From Candidatus Margulisiibacteriota bacterium (lineage in GTDB: Bacteria > Margulisbacteria > Riflemargulisbacteria > GWF2-39-127), in assembly GCA_003242895.1 (NCBI GenBank), contig QKMY01000045.1:124001-188000 (forward strand): a stretch of DNA of 64,000 bases. Reading direction: 5' to 3'. Positions 5,314 through 26,657 of the stretch are shown here, piece by piece (position 1 is the first letter of the stretch; each line of letters opens with the position of its first letter). Made by a program: the position numbers and the translations under genes. A model generated the notes under the pieces. That model saw nothing but the letters and a program-made list of their open reading frames with translations, did not search any database and had not been told where the DNA came from.

Positions 5314-5694
5314 TCAGGTTATCGAGCAAAGAATTTTTTCCCGCAGTTTCAAAGCTCTATCCAGGAGAACTTCAGCTTCTTCGAAAGATATCTCATAACC
5401 TTCTTCATAACGAACAATCACAGCGTAAGGAGCCAATAACTCAGAGATTTCATAATAGTTCCGAAAAGTTCCGTCAATATTTATTGCCTCTTCCAAAAGA
5501 TAAGTAATGTCATGAGTGAATCTGTACAATACGTTCATCTTTACAAGAAACGCTTTCAATAATTTTTCAATCATTTGTTGGATATGGAATACTATTATAT
5601 CAGGAGAAGATCCTTGTGCTGACATAAGAATGGTTACGGTAGTGTAGTCTTGTTCTGCCTTATTCTTTAGAACTCTCACTCTGTTGTCGTTCAT
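5314..5694 (-). CDS. HEPN-domain protein paired with an MNT nucleotidyltransferase
   Basis: The 126-residue all-helical product resembles HEPN proteins, with an HIQQMIEKLLKAFL helix, then RFTHDITYLLEEA and the C-terminal FEEAEVLLDRALKLREKI. It overlaps the upstream MNT gene by 35 bases, the classic two-gene arrangement. HEPN toxins of this class usually carry an Rx4-6H RNase motif. Here only R-F-T-H is evident, which is closer to the substrate-binding HEPN proteins that partner minimal nucleotidyltransferases. It could therefore be a toxin whose motif is not obvious, or a non-toxic partner. It sits between a MAF gene and an ATPase pseudogene. Confidence 0.75.
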   Translation of the reverse strand: MNDNRVRVLKNKAEQDYTTVTILMSAQGSSPDIIVFHIQQMIEKLLKAFLVKMNVLYRFTHDITYLLEEAINIDGTFRNYYEISELLAPYAVIVRYEEGYEISFEEAEVLLDRALKLREKILCSIT

Positions 5695-6007
5695 ATATCT
5701 TTATTCCTCCAACCAAAGCATTGTATACTACTGAATACTGGTCATTCTTTTTTTCATTTATCTCTTTCGAAGTATATACTAATATGTCGAGAGGATAAGC
5801 TATCCCTCGCAATAAACTACGAACATAGCTCGAACGCAAAGGCAATTTCTGATCAGTTTCTTTTTCTATGAGGATATCTATGTCGCTCATTTCGGTCTCT
5901 TCCCCACGGGCAAACGAACCGAAAATATAAATAGCCCGAGGATCGTAACCGCTGACGACACGTTCTTTTATAAGATGATATAGATTTTCTTTAATTTTTT
6001 TATTCAT
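5660..6007 (-). CDS. MNT-type minimal nucleotidyltransferase
   Basis: The 115-residue product has the polymerase-beta-like nucleotidyltransferase signature GSFARGEETEMSDIDILIE (residues about 30-48), with the GS motif and the paired aspartates DID. A third carboxylate is probably the D in YPLDILVY. In studied HEPN/MNT pairs the nucleotidyltransferase is the antitoxin and AMPylates the HEPN partner. The downstream overlapping HEPN gene supports a functional pair. A dedicated promoter is not obvious. Pairs of this kind are typical of accessory DNA and move horizontally, which matches the surrounding gene remnants. Confidence 0.85.
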   Translation of the reverse strand: MNKKIKENLYHLIKERVVSGYDPRAIYIFGSFARGEETEMSDIDILIEKETDQKLPLRSSYVRSLLRGIAYPLDILVYTSKEINEKKNDQYSVVYNALVGGIKIYERQQSESSKE

Positions 6008-9650: not shown

Positions 9651-10787
9651 TTATTCTTTAAGGATGAGATCTGCTAATTCCCTCACAACCCCTTGCCCGC
9701 CATTCTTCGACAAGACAAGATCAGCCTGAGTTTTAATACTCTCGACAGCATCAGCCGGACAAACACTGATGCCCACACACTGAAAGGCGGACAGATCATT
9801 GAGATCATCGCCGATATATGCAATCGCAGCCCGATCAATACCTGTCAGCAGGGCAAGTTCGCAGATCACTGCACCTTTATCCTGAATCCCTTTATAAACG
9901 AAATCAGCTTTAATTTTTTGTGCCCGGTAGTCGGTTATCGTACTGGATTCACCTGTGATTATTGCGGTTTTGATACCTCTTTCACGCAATAGTTCGATAC
10001 CCTTCCCGTCCCTCGTATTGAATTTCTTCAGTTCTTTCCCGGTTTCATCATAGTACATGCCGCTATCGGTAAGTACTCCGTCGACATCAACAGCCACCAG
10101 CTTGACGCCTTTAAGGCTATCATGGAGCGTTGCTTCCTGTCTCAACTTAATCAATTTTTCGACAGCGTGCCAGTCAGAAAGTTCGTCAATTTCGATCGCA
10201 GTATTTTCCGGCATTTCGTAGATGCCGATCCTGCCTCCCAGACGACACTGTGATTGGGTCAGGACGCTTCGTTTCGTGATGTAAAAAGCGCCATTTTCCA
10301 TGATCACGCCGTTGTAGTCCTGTCTGCGAGGACGGTTCAAGGGATCATAGCTCAAAGGAGTCCCGGCGATATCCCAGTAAAATCTTTTTTGATTAACCCC
10401 GGTTACTAAAGAATCCAGATTTTCTGCGTTAAATTTTTTGTAGGCATTAACGAAATCTAGCGGTTCAGTTAACGGAGACGTTGCCTGGATTGTAACGATG
10501 ACATCAAAATCCACGATGTCGGCAATATGCAGCATGACTGATTCTGTGCTGGAGGTGTCGGTTGCCAATTCCGCCGGTCGCATGATGATCTCTACGTCCA
10601 GATTCAAAGATCGTACGACATCGGCGATCTCCTGTGAATCCGTTGATACGACCACTTTATCAAAAATCCCGGAATTGTATGCTGATTCGAGGGTCCAGGC
10701 ACACAGAGGTTTCCCGGCCATCAGTTTTATATTTTTCTTAGGAATGCTTTTTGAGCCGCCGCGAAGAGGGATAAGGGCTATTATCAT
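9651..10787 (-). CDS. neuA: CMP-nonulosonate cytidylyltransferase fused to a KdsC-like HAD phosphatase
   Basis: Residues 1-215 form a NeuA-type cytidylyltransferase: PLRGGSKSIPKKNIKLMAGKPL is the CTP-binding loop, with VVSTDSQEIADV and TIQATSPLT following. Residues 220-378 form a HAD phosphatase of the KdsC type, with VAVDVDGVLTDSG (nucleophile Asp), TGESSTITDYRAQ, KGIQDKG and GDDLNDLSAF. The pairing suggests that one polypeptide dephosphorylates a nonulosonate 9-phosphate and activates it as the CMP-sugar, as in animal CMP-sialate synthetases that carry a C-terminal HAD domain. The first codons overlap the neuB stop by 4 bases (ATGA), indicating translational coupling. The product should be the donor for the neighbouring MAF enzymes. 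Which nonulosonate is made cannot be decided here. Confidence 0.9.
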   Translation of the reverse strand: MIIALIPLRGGSKSIPKKNIKLMAGKPLCAWTLESAYNSGIFDKVVVSTDSQEIADVVRSLNLDVEIIMRPAELATDTSSTESVMLHIADIVDFDVIVTIQATSPLTEPLDFVNAYKKFNAENLDSLVTGVNQKRFYWDIAGTPLSYDPLNRPRRQDYNGVIMENGAFYITKRSVLTQSQCRLGGRIGIYEMPENTAIEIDELSDWHAVEKLIKLRQEATLHDSLKGVKLVAVDVDGVLTDSGMYYDETGKELKKFNTRDGKGIELLRERGIKTAIITGESSTITDYRAQKIKADFVYKGIQDKGAVICELALLTGIDRAAIAYIGDDLNDLSAFQCVGISVCPADAVESIKTQADLVLSKNGGQGVVRELADLILKE

Positions 10788-11659
10788 TTGATATCGTATT
10801 CTCCTATTTTTCGTTTCAGTTTTTTCCGTTGTACCAGCTCGATATCTAAGATCTCTTTTGGTTTGTATTTCATGGTTTTGTCAACGGCCCGAAGATCTCT
10901 CGTTAGCCTGCGAAGACCGTCCGGCTCGAGACTGGCAGCGTGATCAGTACCTTTCCAGGTCCTATCAAGAGTAAAATGACGTTCAAAATATTCAGCCCCC
11001 AAGACCATTGCACCGATATCAACAGAAATACCCAAATGATGCCCGGAGAAGCCAATTGCCTTTACTTTTTTTCCATAGGCTTGTTTTAATCGCGTTATTT
11101 CCATAAGACAAACATCGTCCATCGGGACCGGATAGCCGGAAACACAGTGATAAATTACCACGTCCTTAGTCCTATTAAACCTATCGAAAAACGAAATAAT
11201 ACGTTCTTCTTCTTTTTGGGTTGTCATACCAAAGGATATATGAATAATCCCCGGGAAATTAATTGCAATATATTCCATCATCTCAAAATCCAGATTAGCA
11301 GCCGACGGGATTTTCAGCATGTTGGGCTGCAAAGAAATAATGTCTCTGGCGGAATCAATATCCCACACGGAAGAGGAATAGCCGATCCCCCAGTCCTTGC
11401 ACCATATCTGCAGCTGCTTGTGCTGTTCAAGGTCGAATTCTAAAAACTCCCGATGTTCGCCATAGGTCGCACCAAACGAATGCATTGGATTAGGATGCGG
11501 AGTATTATACTCTGCCTCGGTAAGGAGTGCGCGGGGATTACGTTTCTGGAATTTGACGACATCTGCTTTGCAGAATAGAGCCGCCATTTTGATCATCTCA
11601 TGGGCAATTTCCATGTCCCCTTTATGATTACATCCTATTTCAGCGATTATTACCGGCAT
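10784..11659 (-). CDS. neuB: NeuB-family nonulosonate synthase without SAF domain
   Basis: NeuB-type enzymes condense PEP with an N-acyl hexosamine (or its phosphate) to form sialic-type nine-carbon acids. The TIM barrel is clear: IIAEIGCNHKGD, VVKFQKRNPRALLT, YSSSVWDIDSA, LKIPSAANLDFEMM, YHCVSGYPVP, GFSGHHLGISVDIGAMVLGA (in parts), FERHFTLDRTWKGTDHAASL. Those segments contain the metal-binding His/Glu and PEP-binding Lys positions. At 291 residues it ends just after the barrel and lacks the about 60-residue C-terminal SAF (antifreeze-like) domain of classical NeuB, LegI and PseI. Barrel-only homologues exist. A good SD (AAAGGGGACC) precedes ATG 11659. It forms an operon with the overlapping NeuA-HAD gene. 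Confidence 0.9.
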   Translation of the reverse strand: MPVIIAEIGCNHKGDMEIAHEMIKMAALFCKADVVKFQKRNPRALLTEAEYNTPHPNPMHSFGATYGEHREFLEFDLEQHKQLQIWCKDWGIGYSSSVWDIDSARDIISLQPNMLKIPSAANLDFEMMEYIAINFPGIIHISFGMTTQKEEERIISFFDRFNRTKDVVIYHCVSGYPVPMDDVCLMEITRLKQAYGKKVKAIGFSGHHLGISVDIGAMVLGAEYFERHFTLDRTWKGTDHAASLEPDGLRRLTRDLRAVDKTMKYKPKEILDIELVQRKKLKRKIGEYDIK

Positions 11660-13908: not shown

Positions 13909-15294
13909 ATGGCACCCAAGGTTTCGATTATCGTCAGGTCAAGAAACGAAGAACGCTGGATCACTCCTTGCCTGAAGTCAGTTTTCAACCAGACATTTAA
14001 GGATTTTGAAGTAATCCTTGTTGATAATAAAAGTACGGACAAGACCGTCGAAAAAGCCAAACAATTCGAGGTGACCGTTGTCGAAATCGACAAATACCTT
14101 CCGGGAAAAGCGATCAACGTCGGCATAGAAGCCTCCTGCGGCAGCTATATTGCAATACTATCCTCTCATTGTATTCCGACCAACGAATTCTGGCTCGAAA
14201 ACCTCGTCAGGAACCTCGATGAAGATACCAACCAGGAAATCGCGGGAGTCTATGGCAGACAAGAGCCGCTCGCCTTCACCCATGATCTTGATAAACGCGA
14301 TCTCCTGATAACCTTTGGGTTAGACCGGCGCGTCCAGATTAAAGACAGTTTTTTTCATAATGCCAATAGCCTTGTCAGAAAGTCTGTTGTCGAGACGATC
14401 CCTTTCGACGACACCGCAACTAATATCGAAGACCGGTTATGGGGCAAAGAAATAATTAACCATGGCTACAAAATAGTCTATGAACCTCAGGCCAGTGTCT
14501 ATCACCACCACGGCATTCATCAATCAGGAGACCCGCAACGCGCCCATAATATAGTCAAGATCATGGAATCGATGAACGAAAAAGAATTTTCTTCGAAAAA
14601 AATCAATCATCTTGATCTCAATATCATGGGTATTATTACTGCTAAAGGCGATCCCTTTATGTTCAATAATAAACCGTTGATCGAGTATACGATAAAGAGC
14701 GCCCAGCAATCAAAGCTATTAAATAATCTTATTGTTTCTACTGATAGCGTTAAAACCAAAGAAATAGCGCAAGCACACGGGGTGAATGTCCCGTTCCTTC
14801 GGCCTCAGAAACTATCTAATGACGATATCGGTGTCGAGGCGGTCCTTCAATACACCTTAGACCAACTGGAAAAGAGTAATATTTTTCCGGATATTATTGT
14901 TTATCTTTCTATTATCCAACCGTTCCGTCCGGTATTCCTGATCGATGAACTCATTAGTATGATGCTGAAAAAAGGGTTTGACTCGGTCCTTCCCGGCTAT
15001 CCTTCCTATAAGTCCTGCTGGATAAAAAAAGAAGGCAGCTTAGTGCGGGTGGACGAAGGCTTCGTTGCCAGTTCGCAAAAACATCCGATACATATCGGCT
15101 ATGCTGGACTTGCCTGCGTTACTTATGCCGAGTTCATCCGAAAAGGCCATTTACTGGGAAATAACGTCGGTATTTCCGAAATTGTCGATTTTTACTCGAC
15201 CATAGAGCTTAAAACCCCGGCAAGTTTCGAACTTGCGGAAAAAGCGTTCCCCTATTGGTGGGCTAAGCAAGAGGAGTACTCAGTCCAACGATGA
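13909..15294 (+). CDS. GT2 glycosyltransferase fused to a degenerate CMP-sugar synthetase domain
   Basis: Residues 1-230 are a family 2 glycosyltransferase (VSIIVRSRNEERWI, ILVDNKSTDKTVEKA, LSSHCIPTNEFW, FHNANSLVRKS, NIEDRLWGKEII). Residues about 240-455 align along their length with the CMP-sugar synthetase encoded at 17857 (IVSTDSVKTKEIAQAHGVNV, VPFLRPQKL, IVYLSIIQPFRPVFLI, GYPSYKSCWIKKEG). The CTP-binding signature is lost, however: where the paralogue has ILARGGSKGLPGKN this one reads IITAKGDPFMFNNKP. The second domain is therefore probably catalytically dead and may bind or channel the CMP-sugar made by the paralogue. The stop overlaps the next start by 4 bases, so it is coupled to the isomerase gene. 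The fusion has no named equivalent that I recognise. Confidence 0.85.
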   Translation: MAPKVSIIVRSRNEERWITPCLKSVFNQTFKDFEVILVDNKSTDKTVEKAKQFEVTVVEIDKYLPGKAINVGIEASCGSYIAILSSHCIPTNEFWLENLVRNLDEDTNQEIAGVYGRQEPLAFTHDLDKRDLLITFGLDRRVQIKDSFFHNANSLVRKSVVETIPFDDTATNIEDRLWGKEIINHGYKIVYEPQASVYHHHGIHQSGDPQRAHNIVKIMESMNEKEFSSKKINHLDLNIMGIITAKGDPFMFNNKPLIEYTIKSAQQSKLLNNLIVSTDSVKTKEIAQAHGVNVPFLRPQKLSNDDIGVEAVLQYTLDQLEKSNIFPDIIVYLSIIQPFRPVFLIDELISMMLKKGFDSVLPGYPSYKSCWIKKEGSLVRVDEGFVASSQKHPIHIGYAGLACVTYAEFIRKGHLLGNNVGISEIVDFYSTIELKTPASFELAEKAFPYWWAKQEEYSVQR

Positions 15295-16097
15295 AATTAT
15301 CATATGTTGTCTCCACCCATGAGACTAGCTTCACCTCAGTCGCCAGCGGAAACTTAGAGAACAAGGTCCGAATAATCGCTTCATTAGGATATGATGGCAT
15401 AGAACTCGCTATCCGTGACCCGGGAATGCTCGATGTTTCGTCAATCAGAACGCTTCTCAAAAAGTGCGGATTACAACTAGCAGCGATCGGTACCGGACAG
15501 GCTTATGTTGATGAAGGCCTGTTCTTTTCCTCGACGGACGCGGGGATAACCAAACAGGCTATCGAACGGATTAAAGGGCATATTGATCTGGCAGCGCAGT
15601 TCGAAAGCCAGGTTATTGTCGGGTTGCTACGAGGCGAAGGAATCAAAAACAAATTCTTTAGCGCTGACCAGTTCAAGAAAAGCCTGAGAGAAATCTGCGC
15701 TTATGCAGAAAAGAAAAATACCCGGATAGTGATTGAGCCGATCAACCGGTACGAAACTTCGCTTATTAATTGCGTCCGGGAAGCGCTTGATATCATCCAA
15801 GAGATTAACAGTGCTTCACTTTATATCCTGGCAGATACCTTCCATATGAATATCGAAGAACAGCAGCTGCCATCTACGCTTACCATTGCCGCGCCGAAGC
15901 TGGCACATGTCCATATTGCCGATAGCGATCGCTGGTATCCCGGACACGGGCATATTGATTTCGAAGCAATCATAACAACACTGAAGCAGATTAATTATCA
16001 AGGCTTTCTTTCAGGAGAAATGCTGCCAAAACCGGATTTCGAGACAGCGGCAAAAAAGACAATTCAGTATATGAAAGACAAAATAACACGCTATTAG
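15291..16097 (+). CDS. TIM-barrel sugar isomerase/epimerase (IolE/IolI/AP-endonuclease-2 fold)
   Basis: The 268-residue protein has the xylose-isomerase-like TIM barrel of the sugar isomerase/epimerase superfamily: GYDGIELAIRDP, LQLAAIGTGQAYVDEG, VIVGLLRGEG, RIVIEPINRYETS (metal-binding Glu), LADTFHMNIEE (metal-binding Asp and His), KLAHVHIADSDRWYPGHGHIDF (in parts; His and Asp/His ligands) and FLSGEMLPKPD. Such enzymes use a divalent metal to epimerise or isomerise keto sugars, ketoinosose or hydroxypyruvate. ATG 15291 overlaps the previous stop. Next to an IolB-like cupin and a DAHP-synthase-like aldolase, the natural inference is that it shapes the sugar precursor for condensation with PEP. 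The exact substrate is not readable. Confidence 0.85.
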   Translation: MKLSYVVSTHETSFTSVASGNLENKVRIIASLGYDGIELAIRDPGMLDVSSIRTLLKKCGLQLAAIGTGQAYVDEGLFFSSTDAGITKQAIERIKGHIDLAAQFESQVIVGLLRGEGIKNKFFSADQFKKSLREICAYAEKKNTRIVIEPINRYETSLINCVREALDIIQEINSASLYILADTFHMNIEEQQLPSTLTIAAPKLAHVHIADSDRWYPGHGHIDFEAIITTLKQINYQGFLSGEMLPKPDFETAAKKTIQYMKDKITRY

Positions 16098-16112
16098 AGA
16101 AAGGAAACAATT

Positions 16113-16904
16113 ATGACCGGATTCTCATCACAACTTAGGATTAAAGAAGGTCGAAATGACGCCAAGTGGGCTGATACAATGTTTCACTACATCAAAAAAT
16201 TCTCGGTATTTTCTCTGACGGATAACCAGTCAATTGAGTTAACGACCGCAAAAGATGAAGAAGCCGGAGTAGTTATCCTTGAAGGTGTGTGCGATATTGT
16301 CCTCGAAGGAAAAGAACACAAAAACCTCGGCACAAGAAAAAGCGTTTTCGAAGGAATACCTACCGCCGTTTACATTCCCGCCGGCACAAACCTCAAAGTT
16401 ACGGGAACAGAAGTGACCTTCGCTCTCTGTGTCGGAAAATGCTCACAGAAAACTCACTCAGCAATAATTAGACCGGAAGACATTAAAGTCATGCAGGCAG
16501 GAAAAGACAACTGGCATCGCGAAGTCCGAATGATCATCGGCCCGGATTCTCCTGCTCAAAATCTGTTAATCGGAGAAACCCTCAATCCTCCGGGGAACTG
16601 GTCCGGAACTCCTCCACACAAACATGAACACAATAACCTTCCCGGCGAATCACTGCATGAAGAACTCTATTACTTCAAAACTGACAAACCTCAAGGATAT
16701 GGAATAGAAAAGTTTTACTCTCCTGAACATAATATCGATATGCTCATTCCAATCAAAGACGGAACAGTTACTTACATGCCCTACGGATATCACCAGATCG
16801 TCGCCGCACCCGGATACACACTCTATTATCTATTCTTTTTATCCGGTGAGGGGAAAAAACTTGTGGGCATACCTGACAAGGACCATGCCTGGATAACCAA
16901 GTAA
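16113..16904 (+). CDS. IolB-like cupin isomerase (5-deoxy-glucuronate isomerase family)
   Basis: Over 263 residues the protein matches the double-cupin IolB/KduI family closely: IGETLNPPGNWSGTPPHKHE, ESLHEELYYFKTDKPQGYGI, YSPEHNIDMLI, YMPYGYHQIVAAPGYTLYY and FLSGEG. The HKHEHN stretch with the Glu of HEELYYF and the later His of GYHQIV form the metal site. IolB converts 5-deoxy-glucuronate to 2-deoxy-5-keto-gluconate in inositol breakdown. No other inositol-catabolism gene is nearby; the neighbours are a sugar isomerase and PEP-condensing and CMP-activating enzymes. The reaction is probably an aldose-ketose isomerisation of a uronate or deoxy sugar, but the physiological substrate is likely different. 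An AGAAAGGAA ribosome site precedes ATG 16113. Confidence 0.85.
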   Translation: MTGFSSQLRIKEGRNDAKWADTMFHYIKKFSVFSLTDNQSIELTTAKDEEAGVVILEGVCDIVLEGKEHKNLGTRKSVFEGIPTAVYIPAGTNLKVTGTEVTFALCVGKCSQKTHSAIIRPEDIKVMQAGKDNWHREVRMIIGPDSPAQNLLIGETLNPPGNWSGTPPHKHEHNNLPGESLHEELYYFKTDKPQGYGIEKFYSPEHNIDMLIPIKDGTVTYMPYGYHQIVAAPGYTLYYLFFLSGEGKKLVGIPDKDHAWITK

Positions 16905-16929
16905 ATAATACGCTAAAGGAGCTTACACC

Positions 16930-17856
16930 ATGAAAGATATATCAGCTAATGATCTACAAAACAATATCCCTCTCATTACCAGAAAAGATTACCGGAGAAT
17001 CATCACAACCGGTTCGTACACCTACAATCCGGAAAAAATAATGATTATTGCCGGCCCGTGTACGGTTGAGAGCAAATCCCAGATTATGGAGATAGCAAAA
17101 GCTGTCAGGGAAGCTGGGGCAACTATGCTGCGCGGCGGCATTTTTAAACCGCTCACCTTCCCATACGGCGACCCTCTGGGAAAAAGCGATGCCGATTGCG
17201 ACGGACAGGACCTGGACCGCAAGACTATTATGTCGAAAAAAGAGCTATTTGCCCGGGCAGAAACCCGGCTCGCTTATTTGAAAGAAGCCGGAGATACCTA
17301 CCATTTACCGGTAGTCTCCGAAATCCTCTATGCTGAGACGGCCGCAATGATGTCCAAGTATGTCGACGTATTCCAAATCGGATACCGGCACATGTTCAAC
17401 ATGGACCTTATCGAAGCATTAGCAAATGTTAACAAACCGATCATCCTTAAACGCCATTACGGAGAAAGCCTGCGCTCGCTCCTCGGCGTAGCAGAACACT
17501 TCGAAGCCCGAGGCAAACACGATATAATGTTCTGCGAACGAGGAGTAACTTCGCCGCATACCCACAATGTTGAATCACGGGCAATTATTGATATACAAGC
17601 GATCCCTGCACTGAACGAATACGCTCCGACGGTGCCGGTCCTGGTCGACCCAAGCCATTCTACATTTAAGCGCAGCTATGTTGCGCCGGTAAGCAGGGCA
17701 GCCATCGCAGCAGGAGCAAACGGGCTACTTATCGAAGTCCACAACAACCCGGAAAAAGCATGGGTTGATCCGCTCCAGGCACTTGGATTTAACGACTTTG
17801 AAAAGCTTGTCAAAGAAATCGATCTCATTGGGAAAGTACTCGGGAGGTCTGTCTAA
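16930..17856 (+). CDS. DAHP-synthase-like PEP-dependent aldolase with altered aldose site
   Basis: The 308-residue TIM barrel belongs to the type I-beta DAHP synthase/Kdo8P synthase superfamily: IIAGPCTVESKSQI, MLRGGIFKP, PVVSEILYAETAAMM, VFQIGYRHMFNMDLIEAL, KPIILKRHYGES, ILVDPSHSTFKRSY-like VLVDPSHSTFKRSY, and GLLIEVHNNPEKAWVDPLQAL (in parts). PEP- and metal-binding positions are kept. The erythrose-4-phosphate signature KPR(S/T)S of true DAHP synthases reads KPLTF here, and a stretch of about 25 residues (around DADCDGQDLD) is inserted after it. Aromatic-pathway function is thus doubtful. In this operon, with a CMP-sugar synthetase starting the next base after its stop, it more likely condenses PEP with another aldose to form a 3-deoxy-ulosonic acid. 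An AAGGAG SD precedes ATG 16930. Confidence 0.85.
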   Translation: MKDISANDLQNNIPLITRKDYRRIITTGSYTYNPEKIMIIAGPCTVESKSQIMEIAKAVREAGATMLRGGIFKPLTFPYGDPLGKSDADCDGQDLDRKTIMSKKELFARAETRLAYLKEAGDTYHLPVVSEILYAETAAMMSKYVDVFQIGYRHMFNMDLIEALANVNKPIILKRHYGESLRSLLGVAEHFEARGKHDIMFCERGVTSPHTHNVESRAIIDIQAIPALNEYAPTVPVLVDPSHSTFKRSYVAPVSRAAIAAGANGLLIEVHNNPEKAWVDPLQALGFNDFEKLVKEIDLIGKVLGRSV

Positions 17857-18564
17857 ATGACAAAGAAAAACGTAGCGGCAATTATTCTGGCCCGCGGCGG
17901 GTCCAAAGGTCTGCCGGGGAAAAACATTAAGCCCCTACTCGGACACCCGCTCATGGAATACACCATCAAACCTGCCAGACAAGTACGGCTCATTGACCGG
18001 GTTATTGTTTCGACTGATGATACGGAAATAGCTGCTGTCGCCAAAAGCCTGGGAGCTGAAGTGCCATTTATCCGCCCGGCAGAAGTCGCACAGGACAACA
18101 CCACCTCGGAAGCGTCCATTAAGCATGCACTTCTTTGGTTACAGAAAAACGAAAACTACCGGGTTGATATTCTTGTTTACTTACAGATCCCTGACCTGTT
18201 CAAACAACCTGAATTAATTGAGCAGGCAGTGCGGGCCCTGATAGACGATGATTCCATCGATTCGGCGTTTGTCGGGTATCCTGACAAAAAGAATTACTGG
18301 AAAAAAGAAGAAGGAACCTATACCTGCCTTACGCCAGGAAAACACATGTCACGCCAATTGAAACCACCGGTCTTGCGCGAAGATACCGGTCTGGGCTGTG
18401 CGACACGGGCACGACTACTCATAGAAGAAGAACGGCGTTTGGGTGATAAAGTTGTCATAATCCCCAATAACGAACTGCTGATCGATATCCACGATGACTT
18501 TGATTTCTGGTTCGCGGAAAAAGTCTTACAGGAAAGACCGGAGTTTCAGAAATATAGATTATAG
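17857..18564 (+). CDS. CMP-sugar (ulosonate) cytidylyltransferase
   Basis: The 235-residue NeuA/KdsB-like enzyme has an intact CTP-binding loop, IILARGGSKGLPGKNIKPL (residues 9-27), followed by RVIVSTDDTEIAAVAKSLGA and EVPFIRPAEVAQD. The usual TSPxR segment after the third strand is changed to LQIPDLFKQPELI, so its sugar pocket differs from NeuA at 9651. GYPDKKNYWKKEEG and IPNNELLIDIHDDFDF are shared in pattern with the degenerate domain of the fusion at 13909. Its ATG abuts the stop of the DAHP-synthase-like gene. This order mirrors Kdo and nonulosonate pathways, where synthase and CMP-transferase act consecutively. It should deliver a CMP-ulosonate to a glycosyltransferase such as the fusion protein or a MAF. 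Confidence 0.88.
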   Translation: MTKKNVAAIILARGGSKGLPGKNIKPLLGHPLMEYTIKPARQVRLIDRVIVSTDDTEIAAVAKSLGAEVPFIRPAEVAQDNTTSEASIKHALLWLQKNENYRVDILVYLQIPDLFKQPELIEQAVRALIDDDSIDSAFVGYPDKKNYWKKEEGTYTCLTPGKHMSRQLKPPVLREDTGLGCATRARLLIEEERRLGDKVVIIPNNELLIDIHDDFDFWFAEKVLQERPEFQKYRL

Positions 18565-25067: not shown

Positions 25068-26657
25068 ATGAATAAAAAATGGCTATTTTTAGGTTTTGGC
25101 ATATCTCTCTTCGCTCTTGCAGGCTGCGGCCAGCTTAACAAACTTGACCCCAATCCAGGTGATACTGACCTCTCTCCCCTCAACTCAGCCAAGCATGTAA
25201 ACATTATCGCCACTTCAAAAATCAAGATCACCCTCGGTGATAAAAAATCCGGGGTCTCTGCCCAGTCTATTGAAACTTCCCTGATTGCTTCTCAGTCGGT
25301 CGAAATAGAGGCTGACGTCCCGTCTTTCATGACCTTCCAGGCTAACAGCTCTATTTTCTTTAATGTGACTCAGCTCGGACTGATTAATGCCGATGGCACG
25401 ATCACCCTTAATGTCGTCTACAATGACCTCATCAGCCAGGACCTTCAAGGGGTCAGGGTCAGGGCGTATATGGTTGAATCAAATGGCCTCCACGGTCAGC
25501 AGGTATCAGGAAATATCATCCCGCTTGATATCCAGGTCGTGAACGGTATCCCTTACCAACCATTAACAACCAGCAGCGCAAATATGAAAGTCTGGAATGC
25601 CCCTTTTATGCAGGCGATTAATGAACAAGTTGTGCTCAAGCTCAGAGGCAACTTCACCTATGCACTCAAACAACAGTACAAAGGCACGATAATGCTCGAG
25701 TTCGTCAGGGACGAGAATATAGACAGCCTTCCTCCGGGTATGCCCACCAACTTCACAGCTTCCGCCGGAGACCAGAGAGTAACTCTTAACTGGACCAACC
25801 CCGCGGATAATGACCTCAAAGAAGTGGAATTACGGGTTGCCACCAATAACTATCCGATTTCAGTCACGGATGGAACGCTTGTCTATAAAGGACTGAACCA
25901 GTCCTATATTCACACCGGGCTTACCAATGGTGCAACTTACTATTACAGCATTTTTGCTCGTGACAATGATGGGAATGTGTCGTCGGGGAATCGCGTCTCT
26001 GCAACGCCTCAATCTCCCCCAGATCAGTACACGAAACTACTTCTGCATATGGATGGAAATGGAGAGAGCTTTGTTGATTCTTCTGGACTGAATAACCCTG
26101 TATATGCTGCAGGAGATGCCACACAAACTAGTTCACAAATGGTGTTTGGGGGTAAATCAGCTTATTTTGATGGAACTGGTGATTTCGTTTGTACAAATAC
26201 TTCTCCTATATGGGATCTAGATATCGATAAGTTTACAATAGATTACTGGGTTAAGTTTGCTGCTATAAATGCTGCAAATAATGGCATTTTTGACCAAAAT
26301 AATTTTTATTATATGAATTATGGTGGAACGAACCATGAATTGGGATTTATCTATTATGACTGGAACTATGGTGGTTGGAAAGGAGTAGGCACAACGACTG
26401 TTCTTACAACAAATACATGGTATCACGTTGCTGTAGCAAGAAATGGAGCTAACTTGTTACTTTATTTAAACGGAGTACAAGTAGGCAGTCGAAACATTGG
26501 GGATTATACTATCCCTGGAAATACTGGAGCACTAACCATCGGTTATTCAGCATCCAATGCCAGCATGTCAAATTTATACATTGATGAATTCAGGTTCTCA
26601 AAAGGGATTGCTCGTTGGACCGGACCAACATTTAACGTGCCAACAAACCCATACTAA
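25068..26657 (+). CDS. FN3-LamG lipoprotein
   Basis: The 529-residue protein starts with a lipoprotein signal peptide (MNKKWLFLGFGISLFALAGC): lipobox LAGC, lipidated Cys20. A family-specific region (about 30-223) follows, with KIKITLGDKKSGVSAQSIE and ADVPSFMTFQANSS. Then come a fibronectin-III-like domain (about 224-315: PPGMPTNFTAS, TNGATYYYSIFARDNDGNVS) and a LamG/concanavalin-like domain (about 322-515: YTKLLLHMDGNG, SAYFDGTGDFV, WYHVAVARNGANLLLYLNGVQ in parts). The tail is ARWTGPTFNVPTNPY. It should be membrane-anchored and face the cell exterior or periplasm, binding carbohydrate or protein. AAAGGAGC precedes ATG 25068. Related copies sit at 3-1232 (partial), 28786-29033 and 30461-30559 (decayed). 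Confidence 0.9.
   Translation: MNKKWLFLGFGISLFALAGCGQLNKLDPNPGDTDLSPLNSAKHVNIIATSKIKITLGDKKSGVSAQSIETSLIASQSVEIEADVPSFMTFQANSSIFFNVTQLGLINADGTITLNVVYNDLISQDLQGVRVRAYMVESNGLHGQQVSGNIIPLDIQVVNGIPYQPLTTSSANMKVWNAPFMQAINEQVVLKLRGNFTYALKQQYKGTIMLEFVRDENIDSLPPGMPTNFTASAGDQRVTLNWTNPADNDLKEVELRVATNNYPISVTDGTLVYKGLNQSYIHTGLTNGATYYYSIFARDNDGNVSSGNRVSATPQSPPDQYTKLLLHMDGNGESFVDSSGLNNPVYAAGDATQTSSQMVFGGKSAYFDGTGDFVCTNTSPIWDLDIDKFTIDYWVKFAAINAANNGIFDQNNFYYMNYGGTNHELGFIYYDWNYGGWKGVGTTTVLTTNTWYHVAVARNGANLLLYLNGVQVGSRNIGDYTIPGNTGALTIGYSASNASMSNLYIDEFRFSKGIARWTGPTFNVPTNPY

Follow-up and report, generated by a model that had tools for sequence, protein, structure and literature searches.

A glycosyltransferase joined to a synthetase-like domain lacking catalytic residues, found in seven genomes of three phyla

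The gene at 13909-15294 raises the question of why a glycosyltransferase should carry a copy of a CMP-sugar synthetase that appears to have lost its chemistry, when a separate synthetase with an intact CTP loop is encoded a few genes downstream. The window, by which we mean the whole 64,000-nucleotide stretch analysed, comprises positions 124,001 to 188,000 of the forward strand of contig QKMY01000045.1, from a Candidatus Margulisiibacteriota bacterium (GCA_003242895.1). An original prediction, made from the sequence alone, described a GT2-family glycosyltransferase fused to a catalytically dead domain paralogous to the CMP-synthetase encoded from position 17857, and proposed that this domain either captures the CMP-ulosonate made by the synthetase and hands it to the GT2, or binds the synthetase as a subunit.

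The fusion protein and its altered active site

13909..15294, + strand: fusion protein of a GT2 and a putatively inactive CMP-ulosonate-synthetase-like domain, 461 aa (ORF and translation, Pfam, six full-length homologues)
13909..14523, + strand: GT2 domain, residues 1-205 (PF00535, E 2.9e-28; 59-66% identity to the other fusions)
14161..14172, + strand: S85-S-H87-C88 in the DXD position (S-x-H-C in seven of seven fusions and four unfused relatives)
14428..14433, + strand: E174-D175, the GT2 'ED' catalytic-base motif, retained (invariant in alignments)
14620..15291, + strand: putatively inactive CMP-ulosonate-synthetase-like domain, residues 238-461 (PF02348, BLASTP to the 17857 protein, Foldseek)
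14635..14676, + strand: CTP-loop remnant ITAKGDPFMFNNKP, 8 residues shorter than in the 17857 protein (alignment)
14800..14802, + strand: R298, equivalent to Arg71 of the N. meningitidis and V. cholerae synthetases, retained (alignment; role from PMC6580227)
14908..14910, + strand: S334, replacing catalytic Gln104 (alignment; role from PMC2901514)
15205..15213, + strand: E433-L-K435, replacing metal-binding Asp209-x-Asp211 (alignment; roles from PMC2901514)

The fusion is encoded by a single open reading frame that begins with ATG. Its N-terminal part matches Glycos_transf_2 (PF00535) over residues 6-163 with 99.3 bits against a cut-off of 23.3, and its C-terminal part matches CTP_transf_3 (PF02348) over residues 252-359 with 42.4 bits against a cut-off of 22.6, the latter profile being entered only from position 21, downstream of the CTP loop. 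The C-terminal domain aligns by BLASTP with the 17857 protein over residues 238-422 (35% identity, E 1e-29); against the PseF profile TIGR03584 it scores 70.3 bits, below the curated cut-off of 205.7. The best PDB matches returned by Foldseek for an AlphaFold2 model of this domain (three-row alignment, pLDDT 69, pTM 0.70) are CMP-Pse, CMP-Kdn and CMP-Neu5Ac synthetases, with E about 1e-11 (9ftc, 9t4z, 6ifd, 1eyr). The full-length model, which drew on sequences of the window and related loci only, is of too low confidence for the domain arrangement to be read (pLDDT 63, pTM 0.44). The predicted union of a GT2 with a domain of the CMP-sugar-synthetase fold is thus borne out by Pfam, BLASTP and Foldseek, as is the alignment of that domain with the 17857 synthetase.

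Active-site residues are numbered here after the N. meningitidis synthetase, with its sequence taken from the PDB alignment. Where the 17857 protein has ARGGSKGLPGKNIKPLLGHPL, the fusion has AKG--------DPFMFNNKPL, and the eight-residue gap spans Ser15, Lys16, Lys21 and the CTP loop around them; the position of Asn22 carries no Asn. The loop, RxxSKxxxxKN, is absent from all seven fusions through an identical 8-residue deletion, so that the loop was rightly reported as gone but has been deleted, not exchanged residue for residue as had been supposed. Across the same seven proteins Asp209 has become E or N, Asp211 K, R or S, and Gln104 S or E; Lys16, Lys21, Asn22, Asp209 and Asp211 are lost without exception. 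In the N. meningitidis synthetase, D209A leaves no measurable activity, D211A lowers kcat 15,000-fold and several Gln104 mutants lower it 800- to 20,000-fold (PMC2901514). Because the CTP loop, both Mg-ligand aspartates and the catalytic Gln have all been lost, the C-terminal domain very probably has no cytidylyltransferase activity left, and the original description of it as dead gains strong support from residue comparison.

Arg71 of active synthetases recognises cytosine (PMC6580227), and its equivalent is invariant in the seven fusions; its retention could be structural, since every other aligned homologue has it too. The ribose and phosphate contacts Asn22, Lys21, Lys16 and Ser15 are lost from the dead domains and the sugar contacts Arg165, Arg173 and Tyr179 are mostly changed; Thr106 of the sugar pocket is retained in six of the seven fusions, and the Arg12 position is basic (K or R) in five. 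Several residues that are invariant among the fusions yet different in their sister synthetases fall in or near the dimerisation arm (Nm156, Nm161), an extended segment, residues 137-176, by which active synthetases dimerise (PMC6580227).

Distribution, selection and origin

The original prediction had called for a search for the same two-domain fusion, and six further full-length cases were found. Searching 74 genomes of the window's phylum with the C-terminal domain recovered G047 and G069, a wider search recovered G102 and G311 from outside that phylum, and a search of the phyla of these last two recovered G387 and G385. Together with the window, the seven fusions represent three families of the window's phylum and two other phyla, three phyla in all. 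Identity to the window protein among the aligned fusions is 59-66% for the GT2 domains and 35-42% for the C-terminal domains. Whole-protein scans of GTDB contigs, IMG/VR, phages and plasmids returned GT2 relatives only and no fusion, and a scan of viral contigs with the C-terminal domain gave no match. Because the same frame and the same deletion recur in six other genomes, the fusion is neither a chance product nor an error of assembly or reading frame, and we reject an artefact.

Between G311 and G385, a close pair, dN/dS is 0.072 in the dead domain; the GT2 gives 0.035 and the intact synthetase 0.052, a value made rough by a dS saturated at 2.2. The dead domain is under strong purifying constraint in this pair, and this low ratio, together with the deletion common to all fusions, led us to reject a decaying pseudogene domain. 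As a separate matter, dS of about 2.2 for the intact synthetase (L107:8493-9221, L119:8956-9675) against 0.6 for the fusion gene suggests that the synthetase has been replaced by recombination in this pair.

Maximum-likelihood analysis of 60 synthetase-fold domains places the seven dead domains in a single clade (support 100/100). Their sister is a clade (98/91) that holds the 17857 protein with its G311 and G385 orthologues, and the two are united at a node with support of 100/98. The proposed paralogy with 17857 is therefore upheld and can be placed more exactly, the 17857 protein being a member of that sister group. The sister paralogue is present in three of the seven fusion-bearing genomes (window, G311, G385); at the search thresholds used it was not found in G047, G069, G102 or G387, the last of which is only 88% complete. 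In these four the fusion adjoins a CMP-synthetase of a distant clade, and the neighbourhoods of G047, G069 and G102 also hold genes for an Ldh_2 dehydrogenase and a GFO/IDH/MocA oxidoreductase. Because the searches gave no sister paralogue for these four fusion-bearing genomes, to pair with that paralogue is not the general role of the dead domain, which has either outlived that paralogue or been transferred without it. The suggestion that the domain binds the synthetase as a subunit is accordingly weakened as a general role, and with it an obligate heterodimer with 17857, although in those four genomes the fusion adjoins another CMP-synthetase-fold gene and may dock on a synthetase more generally.

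Within a few kb of each of the seven fusions lies a synthetase whose CTP loop is intact. The 17857 protein retains the loop, Gln104 and Asp209, with His at the Asp211 position, and we call it intact on these residues. The synthetases beside the other four fusions keep the loop but have Gln104 and one or both of Asp209 and Asp211 replaced, and the term is used of them with equal caution. The change from D-I-D to D-I-H at the metal site is common to the synthetases of three genomes (window 17857-18564, L107:8493-9221, L119:8956-9675).

The glycosyltransferase and its gene company

The GT2 domain of the fusion has no DXD metal/diphosphate motif and carries S-x-H instead. We found the longer signature S-x-H-C in four unfused GT2s, from Thalassovita, Gemmobacter, G170 and G251 (L139, L140, L176 and L177), a small set that was partly picked by similarity. 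In the first three (L139, L140, L176) the GT2 gene is overlapped by the next gene, a CMP-synthetase with an intact loop, and in G251 (L177) an intact CMP-synthetase lies about 1.7 kb away on the opposite strand. The closest GT2 clade in a search of 383 genomes had all five of its members fused to the dead domain. Such recurrent gene company suggests, short of proof, that the donor or the partner sugar is a CMP-ulosonate. NDP-sugars are the usual donors of GT2 enzymes, however, and capsule GT2s of Gloeothece and Lactiplantibacillus have S-x-H with no CMP-synthetase nearby; for these reasons CMP-ulosonate is no more than a candidate donor. On account of the capsule enzymes we dropped S-x-H as a marker of CMP-donor use, only the narrower S-x-H-C being linked to synthetase genes.

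Sister S-x-H GT2s have been fused to a different partner, a zinc-dependent alcohol dehydrogenase, in G068, G069 and G102 (L156, L170/L173:10528-12417, L171), and a CTP_transf_3 gene adjoins in all three genomes.

Downstream of the fusion lie four genes on the same strand.

15291..16097, + strand: IolO-like (5-keto-L-gluconate epimerase) gene (NF041099, 330.6 bits, cut-off 300; also in the G311 and G385 operons)
16113..16904, + strand: IolB-like (KduI/IolB) isomerase (TIGR04378, 221 bits, cut-off 205; 54-55% identity to G311/G385)
16930..17856, + strand: DAHP-synthase-like PEP aldolase (PF00793, E 7.5e-44; 72% identity to G311/G385)
17857..18564, + strand: predicted CMP-ulosonate synthetase with intact CTP loop and metal site D-I-H (PF02348, E 8.9e-23; tree; residue table)

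The five genes follow one another in the order fusion, IolO, IolB, DAHPS, CMP-synthetase with gaps no longer than about 25 bases, and the start of the IolO-like gene (15291) overlaps the fusion stop. The same gene set occurs in G311 and G385 (L107, L119), at 44-72% identity per gene. Because the genome has two other DAHP synthase loci, the operon gene, a third copy that is 37% identical to one of them, is a dedicated one. Present in two phyla, the IolO-IolB-DAHPS-CMP-synthetase set (window 15291-18564, L107, L119) appears to be a so far undescribed pathway to a CMP-ulosonic acid.

On either side of the cluster are Maf/MptE-like flagellin glycosyltransferase genes. On the opposite strand, a NeuA-HAD fusion (window 9651-11659, -) adjoins a NeuB-like synthase; it combines a CMP-Kdn-type synthetase with a Kdn-9-phosphatase-like domain (161 bits against a cut-off of 180), and the two genes are predicted to form a second ulosonate pathway. 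A further CTP_transf_3 domain lies outside the window on the minus strand (G000:C45:108476-108913) within a 549-aa open frame. Also within the glycosylation region, HEPN and MNT-type nucleotidyltransferase genes adjoin at window 5314-6007 (-) and are likely a toxin-antitoxin pair. Related lipoprotein-like proteins are encoded at window 25068-26657 and L054:13593-15233, the window one matching a laminin-G-like domain.

Possible roles of the dead domain

Because the pairing has been kept in seven genomes of three phyla, always beside an apparently working synthetase, it is probable that the dead copy has a function, for instance to hold the loaded sugar or to dock partners for the transferase. 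The reading we prefer, tentatively and at a probability of about 0.4, is that it is a non-catalytic module in the service of the GT2 to which it is fused, binding CMP-ulosonate or its synthetase-like dimer. The IolO-like epimerase, the IolB-like isomerase and the DAHPS-like PEP aldolase, followed by the 17857 CMP-synthetase, would yield a CMP-activated ulosonic acid. A duplicate of a 17857-type synthetase would long ago have been fused to a GT2 of the S-x-H clade and would then have lost its chemistry, keeping its fold, its cytosine-recognising Arg and its dimerisation-arm region. Such a domain could hold CMP-ulosonate, or the synthetase-like dimer arrangement that releases this product, beside the GT2 active site, and tethering of this kind would raise both local donor concentration and specificity. 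The fusion, the loss of catalytic residues, conservation, the phylogeny and the gene company were computed directly; we infer that a CMP-ulosonate is the product of the operon, and that this product is used or modified by the GT2 and bound by the dead domain. Capture of CMP-ulosonate and its handover to the GT2, as first proposed, is compatible with the kept cytosine-binding Arg and with the gene company of the GT2 clade; the affinity of the module may nonetheless be low or nil, because the ribose and phosphate contacts are lost and the sugar contacts mostly changed. The fuller version, in which a pseudo-CMP-synthetase is a dedicated module that tethers the donor for a transferase of the GT2 family and GT-A fold, this donor being a CMP-ulosonate and the acid itself a new one made by the IolO/IolB/DAHP-synthase-like route, we consider rather unlikely as a whole.

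The dimer interface of the synthetase family might instead act as a scaffold, homodimerising the GT2 or docking it on an active CMP-synthetase without binding nucleotide. Fusion-specific invariant residues in or near the arm through which active synthetases dimerise favour such a role, and so does the CMP-synthetase-fold gene near every fusion. However, with the sister paralogue absent from four of seven genomes and the neighbouring synthetases there of a distant clade, a conserved heterodimer interface would need to have followed a change of partner, and we regard this explanation as somewhat doubtful. That the domain recognises acceptor, binding an ulosonate already on a glycan or on flagellin while the GT2 adds a further, ordinary sugar, would suit the usual preference of GT2s for NDP-sugars, the flanking flagellin glycosyltransferase genes and the kept Thr106; it is improbable, given that Gln104, Arg165, Arg173 and Tyr179 are changed whereas the cytosine-contacting Arg is invariant.

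Regulation offers another precedent for a dead domain. Eukaryotic GMPPA lacks the activity of its paralogue GMPPB but still binds GDP-mannose and acts as an inhibitor of GMPPB (PMC11228364), and the dead domain, a paralogue of the synthetase in the same operon, might likewise sense the CMP-ulosonate product and feed back on the synthetase or the GT2. Its paralogous target is absent from four genomes, though, and fusion to a glycosyltransferase suggests a role in transfer, not synthesis, so that we hold a sensor to be decidedly improbable. Finally, the domain might be live after all, as an enzyme of some other kind or as a slow synthetase that uses another loop; the basic residue at the Arg12 position in most fusions and the strong purifying selection would both be expected of one. 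This is highly improbable when set against the universal loss of Lys16, Lys21, Asn22 and both aspartates and the near or complete loss of activity that follows mutation of either aspartate in the N. meningitidis enzyme.

The preferred module, which would bind the product or its synthetase-like dimer for the GT2, can be placed among known systems. With the NeuA, PseF and CMP-Kdn synthetases (PF02348) the dead domain shares fold, sequence homology and the cytosine-binding Arg71, and it differs from them in the 8-residue loop deletion, the loss of Gln104, Asp209 and Asp211, and its position behind a GT2. The GT2s of Thalassovita, Gemmobacter, G170 and G251 have the same S-x-H-C motif and a CMP-synthetase gene near, the two plasmid members being 35-36% identical to the window GT2 domain, but their synthetase is separate and its loop intact, whereas the window has a dead copy attached to the GT2 and, apart from it, a second copy that is apparently live. 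GMPPA and GMPPB present a dead nucleotide-sugar-synthetase paralogue kept by selection beside an active one, a situation that our fusions offer in three of the seven genomes; however, GMPPA is free-standing, regulatory and from another nucleotidyltransferase family, and our dead paralogue forms part of a glycosyltransferase. The GT2-alcohol dehydrogenase fusions (G068, G069, G102) resemble ours in belonging to the sister S-x-H clade, in their C-terminal enzyme-derived domain and in the adjoining CTP_transf_3 gene, but their partner is a medium-chain alcohol dehydrogenase and not a synthetase.

Dead nucleotidyltransferase paralogues, ordinary GT2s and CMP-synthetases are already known; fusion of a GT2 to an inactivated CMP-synthetase was not found among the open-access papers that the limited search covered, and papers on Geobacillus and Clostridium flagellar glycosylation make no mention of one. 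Should the dead domain prove to bind CMP-ulosonate, we would have a natural instance of a nucleotide-sugar synthetase converted into a module with which a glycosyltransferase binds its donor, and a pointer to GT2 enzymes that draw on CMP-sugars. If it is only a scaffold, it would still be a clear pseudoenzyme retained by fusion across phyla. The conserved gene set, for its part, points to what seems an undescribed pathway to a CMP-activated acidic sugar, one open to reconstitution and direct identification.

A second type of fusion between a GT2 and a degenerate CMP-synthetase-like domain occurs in G210 (L108:7507-8904) and G393 (L134:35-1402). Here the GT2 has a canonical LDADD, the loop is of normal length but rewritten (VVPVMADPPFTLGAPFTKLAGKPL) and the metal ligands are lost; this type is possibly of independent origin (tree AU p 0.09).
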